In this document: positions 1,759-30,895 of the stretch, piece after piece
Layout: each line of letters opens with the position of its first letter
Position numbering within the stretch: position 1 is the first letter of the stretch
Assembly (NCBI RefSeq): GCF_902168435.1
Contig: NZ_LR656167.1
Location: 1 to 64,000 of the forward strand
Direction: 5' to 3'
Length of the DNA stretch: 64,000 bases
Origin: Bacillus marasmi
Lineage (GTDB): Bacteria > Bacillota > Bacilli > Bacillales > Cytobacillaceae
Position numbers and translations under genes: made by a program
Notes under the pieces: generated by a model
What the model was told of the DNA's origin: nothing
Database searches by the model: none
What the model saw: only the letters and a program-made list of their open reading frames with translations

Positions 1759-3913
1759 GTTTTTCCGTGAAATAGAAAACGTAATTCATCCAGGTGAAAA
1801 ATTAATTAAAACACATTGCAGCTACTGCGGTATGCAATGCGGAATGAATTTACGTGTAAATACTGCTACCAATAAGATTATCGGTGTCGAGCCACGTTAC
1901 GAATGGCCAGTAAATGTTGGAAAGATGTGTCCAAAAGGGGTTACCGCTTATCAACAAACGAATCATCAGGACCGCATCTTAAAACCATTAATTCGTGACA
2001 ATTCTGCACTAAAAGGAACGAAGGACGGCTTCCGTGAAGCAACTTGGGAAGAGGCATACGACCTAATCGCCAATAGATTTCAAGAACTTCAAAGGAACTA
2101 TGGGAAGGATACGCTTAGTGTCTTTAGTGGAGTATCAATGACCAATGAAAAATGCTACCTCACGGGGAAATTTGCTCGTGTAGGTCTACAAACCCGCTAT
2201 ATCGATTACAATGGTCGCTTTTGTATGTCTAGTGCAGCAGGTGGCTTTCTAAGAAGCTTTGGTGTAGACCGCGGTTCAACTCTACCTTGGACTGATTTAC
2301 ATGAAACTGATTGCCTGTTTATCGCAGGAAGTAATACGGCTGAATGTCATCCAACTTCAATGTTCAGAGTTTGGGCCGTTCAGGAACGTGGTGGATACTT
2401 AATTGTTGCTGATCCACGTGAGACTCCAATTGCTAGAAGAGCAGATATTCATCTTGATCTAAAACCGGGGACGGACCTCGCGTTAGCTAATGGAATTCTA
2501 AATCTATTAATCCAAAACGGATATGTTGATGAGGAATTTGTGAAAAATCACACAAATGGTTTTGAGGAAACAAAAGAGCTTGTGAAGCAATTTACACCGG
2601 AACATACAAGTGAGCTAACGGGTGTTGCACCGGAGAAAATTATCAAGGCAGCAGAAATTTACGGAAAGGCTCCAAATGCCATTGTCATGTTTGCACGTGG
2701 TATTGAGCAGCAACATAAGGGAGTCGATAATGTTTCTGGATATACGAATATGGCGCTTGTAACAGGGAAAATTGGACGACCGAAAGCGGGCGTTGCAACC
2801 TTCACAGGTCAAGGGAACGGTCAGGGTGGTCGCGAGCATGGTCAAAAATCAGACCTACTGCCAGGCTATCGCAAAATCACCAATCCTAAGCATGTTGAGG
2901 AAGTGTGCCAAGTTTGGGGCATCACTCCTGAAGAGATGCCACAGCCAGGTGTTTCTGCCTATGAAATGTTCGAGCTAATGGAGCAAAAGACGATTAGAGG
3001 TCTTTACTTATTATGCTCTAACCCAGCTGTGTCTGCACCAAACCTTAATTATGTTCGCAAACAAATGAAAAACCTAGATTTCATGGTTTGCGTTGACTTC
3101 TATCTATCTGAATCTGCCGAATTTGCAGATGTAGTGTTACCGACAACGACTTGGTCCGAAGACGAAGGAACGGTAACTAATCTTGAAGGACGAATTATTA
3201 AAATAAATAAAGCTCAGGAGCCGGTAGGTGAATCGAAGCCAGACTGGCAAATCCAAGTGGAATTAAGTAATCGCCTTGGGCGCGGAAAATTTTTCTCGCA
3301 CCTAAAAAATGCCAAGGATGTAGCGGATGAATTCCGTTTAGCTACAAAAGGTGGCTATGCCGATTATTATGGTGCGACATGGGACAAAATCGACAAGCAA
3401 GATGGTGTATTCTGGCCATGTAAGGATGAAAAGGATGAGGGAACACCTCATATGTTCCTCGATAAAAAATTCTACCATCCAGATGGAAAAGCAAAAATTT
3501 GTGCATTGCCTTATCGTCCGCCAGCTGAAGAGCCAGATGAGGAATTTCCGATTCGCTTAACAACTGGCCGAGTTGTATACCATTATCTATCAGGTAATCA
3601 GACACGCAGAATTCCATTCTTAAAAGATATGTGCCCTGAACCATATGTTGAAGTACATCCGGAATTAGCTGCAAAGTACGGTATTGAACATGAGGAAATC
3701 GTTCGACTCTATACCCGCCGTGGGGAAGCTCACTACAAGGTGAAAATCACTGAAGCCATTCGTAAGGATACTGTTTTCGTGCCATATCATTTCGGTCATG
3801 CGCAATCCATTAACTTATTGACGATTCCAGCACTTGATCCAATGTCAAGAATGCCAGAATTTAAAGCCTGTGCGGCGCAACTTGAAAAAATTGATTTAAA
3901 GAAGGTGCAGTAA
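1745..3913 (+). CDS. molybdopterin (MGD) oxidoreductase catalytic subunit, probable nitrate reductase of Nap/Nas type
   Basis: The 722-residue protein belongs to the DMSO-reductase superfamily. An N-terminal [4Fe-4S] motif is visible as Cys25, Cys28, Cys32 and Cys62, and GRFCMSS supplies Cys160 as the likely molybdenum ligand, in the RxCMxS style of Nap/Nas nitrate reductases. The MGD-binding core and the C-terminal molydopterin-dinucleotide domain (about residues 600-715) follow. No twin-arginine signal is present, so the catalytic site is probably cytoplasmic. Neighbouring ferredoxin, Rieske, NarK and Nre-like genes support nitrate as substrate, but formate or another oxyanion cannot be excluded. 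Cys160 is encoded by an ordinary TGT codon. The start has an AAGGAGG site. Confidence 0.85.
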   Translation: MQRDKFFREIENVIHPGEKLIKTHCSYCGMQCGMNLRVNTATNKIIGVEPRYEWPVNVGKMCPKGVTAYQQTNHQDRILKPLIRDNSALKGTKDGFREATWEEAYDLIANRFQELQRNYGKDTLSVFSGVSMTNEKCYLTGKFARVGLQTRYIDYNGRFCMSSAAGGFLRSFGVDRGSTLPWTDLHETDCLFIAGSNTAECHPTSMFRVWAVQERGGYLIVADPRETPIARRADIHLDLKPGTDLALANGILNLLIQNGYVDEEFVKNHTNGFEETKELVKQFTPEHTSELTGVAPEKIIKAAEIYGKAPNAIVMFARGIEQQHKGVDNVSGYTNMALVTGKIGRPKAGVATFTGQGNGQGGREHGQKSDLLPGYRKITNPKHVEEVCQVWGITPEEMPQPGVSAYEMFELMEQKTIRGLYLLCSNPAVSAPNLNYVRKQMKNLDFMVCVDFYLSESAEFADVVLPTTTWSEDEGTVTNLEGRIIKINKAQEPVGESKPDWQIQVELSNRLGRGKFFSHLKNAKDVADEFRLATKGGYADYYGATWDKIDKQDGVFWPCKDEKDEGTPHMFLDKKFYHPDGKAKICALPYRPPAEEPDEEFPIRLTTGRVVYHYLSGNQTRRIPFLKDMCPEPYVEVHPELAAKYGIEHEEIVRLYTRRGEAHYKVKITEAIRKDTVFVPYHFGHAQSINLLTIPALDPMSRMPEFKACAAQLEKIDLKKVQ

Positions 3914-28333: not shown

Positions 28334-28702
28334 GTGAAGGAACATGATGTATGTGAAGTAACCTGTGTTGACGATGAAAAGGTAACCCGTGTTCGTTCAG
28401 CCATAAAAGACCACAATACGAATGAAGTAGCCAAAATCTTCAAGGCGCTTTCTGATGATACTAGACTTAAAATTGCTGTCTCATTAACACTAGAAGATGA
28501 GCTTTGCGTTTGTGACGTTGCAAATATCATTGGCTCTTCGGTTGCTACAGCCTCTCATCATCTTCGATTGCTTCGTAATTTGGGGATTGCTAAGTTTCGC
28601 AAAGAAGGAAAACTTGTATATTATTCGATTGATGACGAGCATGTACTTCAACTGATTCAACTAGCCTTCACTCATCAGAAGGAGGTGGAGAATCGTGTCT
28701 GA
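28334..28702 (+). CDS. cadC: CadC-type ArsR/SmtB metal-sensing repressor
   Basis: The 122-residue winged-helix repressor starts at GTG behind AAGAGGAG. Metal-sensing cysteines of the CadC alpha3N site are seen: two in the N-terminal arm (HDVCEVTC) and two in ELCVCDV. The DNA-binding helix is in SSVATASHHLRLLRNLGI. Cd, Pb or Zn binding releases it from its operator. It overlaps the ATPase gene by 8 bp, as in classical cad operons. Confidence 0.93.
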   Translation: MKEHDVCEVTCVDDEKVTRVRSAIKDHNTNEVAKIFKALSDDTRLKIAVSLTLEDELCVCDVANIIGSSVATASHHLRLLRNLGIAKFRKEGKLVYYSIDDEHVLQLIQLAFTHQKEVENRV

Positions 28703-30833
28703 AGAAACTGAAAAGCATAACGTCAAAACAGTATATCGTGTTCAAGGTTTTTCTTGAGCAAGCTGTGCGAAAAAGTTCGAAACGAACGTAAAACACCTGG
28801 ATGGTGTTTCTGATGCAATGGTAAACTTTGGTGCAGCAAAATTAACGGTGTATGGAGATACAACGATTGAACAGCTTGAAAAGGCAGGGGCATTTGAAAA
28901 TTTACAAGTGATTCCTGAAAAACAGCAATTCCAACAAAAACAAGAGCCATTTTTGAAAAAGCATGCGACTGTGCTAGTTTCATTCCTATTTTTAGTGCTT
29001 GGTTGGATATTGGGGAACTTGTACGGTGAAGGGGATATAGTTTCGATAGGGGCTTATGCTGTTTCGATTTTAATTGGTGGTTATCGCCTTTTTAAAACAG
29101 GGATAATGAATTTAGTCCAGTTACAATTTGATATGAAAACATTAATGACCATAGCGGTAATTGGTGCTGCTTTAATTGGAGAATGGGGTGAAGGTGCTAC
29201 AGTTGTCATTCTTTTTGCAATAAGTGAAGCCCTTGAAACCTATTCGATGGATAAGGCACGTAATTCGATTCGCTTATTAATGGACATTGCGCCGAAAGAA
29301 GCTTTAATCCGCAGAGGAAATCGCGAAATAACAATAGAAGTTGATGATATTGATATTAATGACATCATGATTGTAAAGCCTGGTCAAAAGATCGCGATGG
29401 ATGGAGTAATAGTAAAAGGTGTTTCAACGGTTAATCAAGCAGCGATTACTGGTGAATCTGTTCCGGTTGCAAAAATGATTGATGATGAAGTGTTTGCAGG
29501 AACATTAAATGAAGAGGGATTTTTGGAGGTCCGAGTTACTAAACACGTAGAAGATACAACCATTGCAAAAATCATTCATCTAGTTGAGGAGGCCCAGGCA
29601 GAGCGGGCACCTTCACAGGCTTTTGTTGATCGTTTTGCTAAGTACTATACACCCATAATTATGTTGGTTGCGTTAGGGGTGGCTATCATTCCGCCATTAT
29701 TATTTGGAGCAAGCTGGGACAAATGGATTTATCAAGGCTTGGCTGCATTGGTAGTCGGATGTCCTTGTGCGCTTGTTATTTCTACCCCAGTAGCCATTGT
29801 CACGGCCATTGGTAATGCAGCCAAACATGGTGTTTTAATCAAAGGCGGAATCCATTTGGAGCAAATGGGTGTGATTCGAGCAATCGCCTTTGACAAAACT
29901 GGTACATTAACAAAAGGAGCTCCAGCTGTTACAGATTTTTTAACATTTGGCACTAGCAATCCGGTAGACATTTTAGCAATCATTACAGCAATCGAAAAGG
30001 GATCTCAGCATCCGTTAGCTTCAGCAATTATCAAAAAAGCAGAAGCTGAGAATTGCGATTATCAACATCTTCATGTTGAGGAATTTGCTTCGTTAACAGG
30101 TAAAGGAATTAAAGCGAAAGTGAACGGAACGGATTATTTAGTTGGTAATCCAGGATTATTTGCAGAAACTTTACCAAATCCAATTCAACCTAAACTACTT
30201 AGCCAAATATCTGAATGGCAAAATCAAGGTAAAACAGTTATGATGGCTGGAACAACCATGGAGATCCTTGCGTTGATTGCGGTAGCTGATGAAATGCGTG
30301 AAAATTGTCATCAAGTTATCAAAACTTTACATTCAATTGGTATTCAAAAAACGATCATGCTTACAGGTGATAATCAAGGCACAGCAGTAGCGATTGGTAA
30401 GCAAGCTGGTGTAAAGGAAGTTAAATCTGATTTACTCCCACAAGATAAGTTGAAATATATTAAAGAGCTTCGAGCTAAATATAACCATGTAGCCATGGTT
30501 GGAGACGGTGTTAACGATGCACCGGCCTTGGCGGCTGCGTCTATAGGGATTGCGATGGGGGGAGCGGGAACTGATACCGCCCTTGAAACAGCAGACATCG
30601 CACTGATGGCTGATGATCTAGGTAAATTGCCATTTACATTGAAGCTTAGTCGCAAAGCTTTAGCTATTATTAAACAAAACATTACATTCTCATTGGGGAT
30701 CAAGCTACTTGCTTTGCTATTAGTCGTTCCGGGCTGGCTTACCCTTTGGATTGCAATTTTTGCCGACATGGGAGCAACCTTAATCGTAACCTTAAACGGC
30801 TTAAGATTACTGCGGGTATATGATAAAAAATAA
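28695..30833 (+). CDS. cadA: CadA-type Cd/Zn/Pb P1B-ATPase with in-frame TGA at the metal-site Cys codon
   Basis: The full reading frame begins at GTG 28695 (AAGGAGG site, 8-bp overlap with cadC). It encodes an N-terminal HMA metal-binding domain, but codon 21 is TGA (28755-28757) exactly where the first Cys of the GFTCxxC motif belongs: [14 protein letters not shown]. Homology continues in the same frame on both sides. The rest is a normal P1B ATPase: GESVP, the CPC motif in [10 protein letters not shown], phosphorylated DKTGTLT, and [10 protein letters not shown], 712 codons in all. Either UGA is read as selenocysteine, or the site is a nonsense mutation or sequence error. The first in-frame ATG after it (28818) would give a 671-residue pump lacking most of the HMA domain. 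Confidence 0.88.
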
Positions 30834-30849
30834 TAAAGTAAATAATAAA

Positions 30850-30895
30850 TGGCGTGTAAACTATACGTAAGTTTATACACGCCATTTTTTTATGT
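30850..30895 (+). terminator. terminator of cadC-cadA
   Basis: ATGGCGTGTAAACT and AGTTTATACACGCCAT pair with one bulge around a 5-nt loop, followed by seven T. Confidence 0.88.

Follow-up and report, generated by a model that had tools for sequence, protein, structure and literature searches.

The stretch of DNA analysed here (the window, 64,000 nt of Bacillus marasmi contig NZ_LR656167.1) carries on its + strand a cadC gene (28334..28702) encoding an ArsR/SmtB-family regulator (HTH_5, E 1.8e-10), followed by cadA (28695..30833, +), which encodes a heavy-metal P1B-type ATPase of 712 residues when codon 21 is taken as selenocysteine (Sec). The cadC ORF was listed from TTG 28310 and its start at GTG 28334 was picked by eye; its 3' end overlaps the start of cadA by 8 nt. 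We place the cadA start at GTG 28695 because a likely ribosome-binding site, AGGAGG (28680..28685, +, from the sequence), lies 9 nt 5' of it. A terminator-like hairpin with a T-run was located by eye 3' of the gene (30850..30891, +). From GTG 28695 the frame is open to TAA 30833 except for a single internal TGA at 28755..28757 (+), which is codon 21, as the original prediction had it. The protein comprises HMA, E1-E2_ATPase and Hydrolase domains, contains the CPC (VVGCPCALV) and DKTGT (FDKTGTLT) motifs, and scores 593.9 bits against TIGR01525 (cut-off, 346.25). Homology and the ArsR-family neighbour suggest cadmium as its substrate.

The in-frame UGA, flanked by GFS and ASCAKKFE, occupies a site at which homologues have Cys. 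The metal site at residues 21-24 would thus read UASC within the HMA domain, the Sec codon supplying the first residue of a UxxC that is CxxC elsewhere. Residues 11-77 aligned without gaps to the solved HMA domain 2aj0/2aj1 and the TGA lined up with the first CxxC Cys of that domain, which we take to be a metal ligand; the claim that the stop codon sits exactly on the ligand Cys is therefore borne out.

The genome (4.64 Mb in 46 contigs) contains selA, selB and selD, each above its curated cut-off, and also selC (62.2 bits, anticodon TCA, above the curated cut-off), so that all four genes proposed as a check on Sec decoding are present. The tRNA screen scored 150 of 280 candidates, with ARAGORN run on the window and three loci, and selC was the sole tRNA-Sec match above cut-off among the 150; Rfam and ARAGORN gave no matches on the 64,000-nt window itself. 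Three other genes of this genome have an in-frame TGA: selD (L020, G000:C33:149065-149991) at GUGCK, an fdhA above cut-off at UHAPS, and an fdhA-like gene, whose pieces score below cut-off, at UHSST. In all three, folding placed a hairpin loop 17-18 nt past the TGA (spacing by eye). UGA therefore appears to be used for Sec in this organism independently of cadA. The window also holds a formate dehydrogenase alpha-like gene (1811-3880, +) with no internal stop, which scores 657.5 bits against TIGR01591, slightly below the cut-off.

Among relatives, the TGA was found at the CxxC site in 6/6 close CadA copies of the genus (5/5 genomes, a second copy included). In the family, 181 of 193 genomes gave a CadA match at E 1e-190, and a hand count of the 150 matches listed gave 120 with at least one TGA and 30 without, 29 of the latter being stop-free and one having a TAA only. 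For 58 loci fetched from that listing (34 in L025-30 and L055-83, 24 in L202-241; L030 and L241 are one gene) the position was verified, and it was the same codon in 58/58. L234, which the site-finding pattern passed over, is TGA-type at this codon. The stop codon is thus conserved in genus and family, a point on which the original prediction had made the Sec reading depend. A scan of named genomes used a TGA-type pattern, so that all its matches have the TGA by construction; at least 118 stretches matched, and among those listed 112/118 were CadA-like and 6/118 were not. The CadA-like stretches listed included 100 from Bacillaceae (NCBI names), 3 from Clostridia and 1 from Carnobacteriaceae, and the genera concerned were Neobacillus, Cytobacillus, Mesobacillus, Peribacillus, Halalkalibacter, Robertmurraya, Schinkia and others. 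In two Cytobacillus plasmids, annotated CDS with protein accessions extend across the TGA. Some single cases deserve mention on their own. One TGA-type stretch is labelled Chryseobacterium, probably wrongly. L238 (G048:C1:3392920-3394899), a TGA-type cadA whose match contains three TGA and one TAA, is probably decayed. A distant ATPase of Syntrophomonas sp. DTU018 (L122, 33% identical) has one HMA domain with CxxC and a second with a TGA at the same Cys.

The distribution of the TGA follows that of selA. The latter was found in 172/193 genomes of the family and in 139/299 sampled from the order, and the remark that Bacillaceae rarely decode Sec does not apply to this lineage. Among the 150 family matches listed, a TGA was present in 118 of 131 from selA-positive genomes versus 2 of 19 from selA-negative ones (Fisher p 1.6e-12, the related genomes not being independent). 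For 13 of the 21 family genomes lacking a selA match, selB was checked as well (G192 being taken as selA-negative because one such genome was left off the list); it was absent above cut-off in 12 and present in G183, where selA may merely be missing, since selB was found and the genome is 80% complete. The two exceptions, G169 and G171, have the TGA at this codon with no selA match and no selB above cut-off. The G169 gene (L202) lies within 5.6 kb that are 99.97% identical to the selA-positive G011 (L240), so a recent transfer between the two is likely. L202 seems to be a Sec gene that has entered a host without the capacity to decode it.

Two hairpins follow the TGA at the places indicated by the original prediction. 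Hairpin 1 (28773..28789, +; core GTTCG-AAA-CGAAC at 28775-28787) has a GAANN loop starting 21 nt past the UGA, and hairpin 2 (AAACACC-TGGAT-GGTGTTT, 28791..28809, +) has seven pairs and a TGGAT loop starting 40 nt past it; both were supported by pair counts and RNAalifold. In 132 distinct TGA-type segments, hairpin 1 was paired in 693/792 cells and hairpin 2 in 864/924, values that 0/1000 shuffles reached for either, while the 19 distinct Cys-type segments gave 83/114 and 67/133, scores attained in 744/1000 and 587/1000 shuffles. Hairpin 2 was lost in 16/19 Cys-type segments, where at most 4 of its 7 pairs remained. Hairpin 1 kept 4 or 5 of its 6 pairs in 19/19, part of it being held in place by conserved codons for Phe, Glu and Asn. 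The hairpin 1 pairs 20-32 and 23-29, however, join third codon bases, and these were formed in 130 and 131 of 132 TGA-type segments (GC or AT, CG or TA among them) versus 10 and 8 of 19 Cys-type ones.

Seven of the 132 distinct TGA-type segments were without the two-hairpin element by pair count, and two further ones (L092 and L108) passed the count yet had a different fold; these nine rows were excluded before alignment A1 and covariance model R1 were built. Six of the nine (L092, L108, L149, L173, L176 and L177) form one hairpin instead, its loop (A/G)GUU(U/C) lying 16-17 nt past the UGA. By eye, L289 is likewise a single-hairpin TGA-type cadA (CUGCUC-AGUUU-GAGCAG type, 16-17 nt past the UGA). 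In A1 (64 rows picked for diversity), 92.9% of cells were paired and 27 were double-changed, against 4.6 in shuffles (0/500 reached 27) and at most 11 in slid controls; two of the five measures stood out less, the number of pairs with changes on both sides being reached by 3/500 shuffles and that of pair types by 26/500. Compensatory changes are thus present in the hairpins of TGA-type genes; in Cys-type genes there were none above chance. RNAalifold, unaided, recovered the cores of both hairpins (4 and 6 pairs). One hairpin 1 pair is an A-G mismatch in 33/64 rows, among them the window's cadA, and in 19/64 rows hairpin 2 has its outer pair open. Against synonymous recodings, with codon weights taken from the window's cadA, the fold of +15 to +56 gave z -3.2 for this gene (12/2000 as low) and a median z of -4.3 for TGA-type rows, z being below -2 in 134/139 of them versus 3/21 Cys-type rows (L070, one of two L152 rows, and L220; L214 reached -1.9).

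When the home genome was scanned with R1, only two cadA copies scored (85.8 and 82.5 bits; next, 14.5), and the element is therefore not shared by the other TGA genes. The second copy (L030 = L241, G000:C11:45572-47686) is TGA-type, 74% identical, and has the same two hairpins. In the order, R1 at E 0.001 matched 95 of 299 genomes, assumed from the identical settings, and from handles that agree where displayed, to be those of the selA scan; 59 had strong matches (at least 59 bits) and 36 weak ones only, the split being set by eye at the empty stretch of scores from 48 to 59 bits. Strong matches occurred in 58/139 selA-positive genomes versus 1/160 selA-negative ones (G357; p 6e-22, genomes not independent), and 7/36 weak-only genomes were selA-positive. 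Twenty of the 62 strong matches were fetched, all outside the window's family, and 20/20 encoded UxxC, a count that is partly built in because R1 contains the TGA, the selA association being less so. The 20 fetched out of 45 weak matches comprised 19 CxxC and one UxxC (G234, selA-positive), of the single-hairpin type.

The TGA also alternates with TGC/TGT in relatives, an alternation that the original prediction had proposed to look for. On a FastTree phylogeny of 146 rows built without the HMA part, and having some long branches, at least seven TGA/Cys changes were counted versus 23 after shuffling; six of the seven are forced by well-supported branches. The residue encoded at +45 differs between the two types, being Asp in 122/139 TGA-type rows and Pro in 15/21 Cys-type rows. 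L070, a TGT gene, has both hairpins intact; in L214, a TGC gene with a TGA sister (L239), the second hairpin is damaged. These features make both look like recent Sec-to-Cys changes. L070 (G124:C2) shares its genome with a TGA-type copy, L237 (G124:C1), which has an extra in-frame TGA upstream (KUKNVYR).

From the frame, the site, the decoding machinery, the co-occurrence with selA and the covarying RNA structure, all of them read in the sequence, we infer that TGA 28755-28757 is very probably translated as Sec at the metal-binding position. The best explanation, to which we give a probability of about 0.95, is that cadA encodes a selenoprotein heavy-metal efflux ATPase whose Sec would be inserted by SelA, SelB, SelC and SelD with the help of a two-hairpin SECIS. 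Several alternatives were weighed against it. An unlikely one is that UGA does specify Sec but serves mainly as a switch, full-length pump being made only when selenium is supplied. Any Sec gene inherently depends on the selenium supply, and some genomes (e.g., G050 and G186) do hold Cys-type copies beside their TGA-type ones, but no selenium-responsive element is known at this locus and a switch would not need the UxxC spot, which is precisely a predicted ligand. A reading of the UGA in which a different tRNA, or leaky read-through, inserts Cys or Trp is more improbable still. The residue replaced is Cys and the check for UCA anticodons covered 150 of 280 candidates; against this stand the conserved structure past the UGA, the co-occurrence with selA, the other TGA genes of the genome, which have theirs at known Sec sites, and the finding of selC, with anticodon TCA, as the lone tRNA-Sec match over cut-off.

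Of the two possibilities initially considered, Sec and a nonsense mutation, the former is far better supported, given that the machinery is present, the TGA is conserved and relatives alternate at the codon. A nonsense mutation would leave cadA broken, or restarting at ATG 28818 to give a pump without most of its HMA domain, and we consider this very improbable. It is true that ATG 28818 begins a 671-aa ORF and that some P1B ATPases lack an HMA domain. The TGA, however, is shared by all six close copies of the genus and by most of the family matches listed, a strong Shine-Dalgarno sequence precedes GTG 28695 only and none lies 5' of ATG 28818, and the HMA residues YRVQGF, N-terminal to the TGA, remain conserved. 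In addition, 125/139 TGA-type rows have no in-frame ATG within 39 codons past the TGA (ATG alone counted). The restart that was suggested as still yielding a pump is itself unlikely, because ATG 28818 is unique to the window's cadA, with 0/138 other TGA-type rows having an ATG there; nonsense mutation with restart was rejected. A sequencing or assembly error, for which a single base (TGT/TGC to TGA) would suffice, was dismissed outright, since separate assemblies of relatives across the genus, the family and many named genera (the last found by TGA pattern) share the TGA at the same codon.

As to the SECIS, the hairpins were where the original prediction put them; its view that either could serve fits less well, both being preferable because they are conserved jointly in most TGA-type sequences. 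The bSECIS model, as given in part of PMC13188914, has a loop of 3-9 nt, a stem of 4-16 bp, a G in loop positions 1-2, a spacing of 16-37 nt and an MFE of -7.5 or lower. The spacing of hairpin 1 (21 nt) fits and its energy (-3.9 kcal/mol) is too weak; hairpin 2 barely reaches -7.5 and its 40-nt spacing is outside the range, so that neither singly agrees with the model on every count. Jointly, their energy is -11.7. Like the bacterial SECIS described in that part of the source, the cadA element lies in the coding region 3' of the UGA, and a G occurs in the first two loop bases of both hairpins if hairpin 1 is drawn with four pairs and the loop GAAAC; it differs from the published consensus, as far as it is described there, in having two hairpins. 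Two outgroup sequences (L156 and L183) have a long hairpin with an inner loop at the place of the hairpin 1 loop, which by eye favours hairpin 1 as the one bound by SelB. By eye too, the hairpin 2 loop UGGAU is closer in look to the fdhA loops GGUCU.

With cadA read as a selenoprotein gene, the system might work as follows. CadC, encoded directly upstream, probably governs the operon and would release the promoter on sensing metal. The ribosome would start cadA at GTG 28695, and the two adjacent hairpins (+18 to +54 past the UGA) would recruit SelB and Sec-tRNA, so that UGA 28755 would become Sec as residue 21, in place of the first Cys of CxxC in the cytoplasmic HMA domain. Selenium binds soft metals more strongly than sulphur and is deprotonated at neutral pH, and the likely benefit, by this chemical analogy, would therefore be metal capture: the U-A-S-C site would be expected to hold soft metals (Cd, Zn, Pb or Hg) more tightly and to hand them over to the CPC site in the membrane. 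In the majority of characterised selenoproteins, Sec takes part in redox chemistry. A more detailed proposal, which we put forward tentatively and think somewhat likelier to fail than to hold as a whole, is that the cadA SECIS is a new two-hairpin architecture of Bacillaceae. In this proposal the upstream hairpin would hold or shorten the RNA and thereby bring a loop 40 nt from the UGA within reach of SelB, or the loops would be read jointly; the RNA would dictate some of the protein (HLDGV, against PGV in most Cys-type pumps); Sec would act as a metal ligand and not as a redox residue; and the pump would be mobile between genomes and have changed between Sec and Cys several times.

If the selenoprotein reading is true, cadA represents a transporter of wide distribution whose Sec occupies a metal-ligand position. 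With Sec and Cys forms both occurring naturally among culturable relatives, the contribution of selenium to metal binding would be directly testable, and the two-hairpin SECIS, with its natural covariation, would offer a way to probe the maximum SECIS-UGA distance in bacteria. The titles and abstracts of open-licence papers searched yielded none on a Bacillaceae Sec-CadA or on a two-hairpin bacterial SECIS. A Sec P1B ATPase is already known as a predicted kind, and it is the spread in Bacillaceae and the two-hairpin SECIS that we did not find in print. Predicted P1B-type ATPases with Sec in UxxC are listed in the portions available of PMC13188914 and PMC9312934, and the corresponding portions of two other reports count 32 proteins in 25 organisms (PMC5029168, 2016) and one in the GOS set (PMC2398784). 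The window's cadA resembles that family, as described there, in being P1B-type with Sec in UxxC; it belongs to a Bacillaceae CadA subgroup that adjoins cadC and has the two-hairpin SECIS, the published family (ABB15669.1) being known here by description only. NF041115 (UxxU_metal_bind, metal-binding (seleno)protein) gave an HMA-like match to CadA residues 11-53 at 23.1 bits, far under its cut-off of 95, and by its name has two Sec (UxxU). The closest likeness is with CadA-type ATPases of the CxxC kind (2aj0/2aj1; full-length 4umv and 7qbz), whose domain order is that of the window's CadA; the five plasmid CadA homologues checked are CxxC and 68-71% identical to it, and the ATPases of this kind carry Cys where the window's CadA would have Sec.
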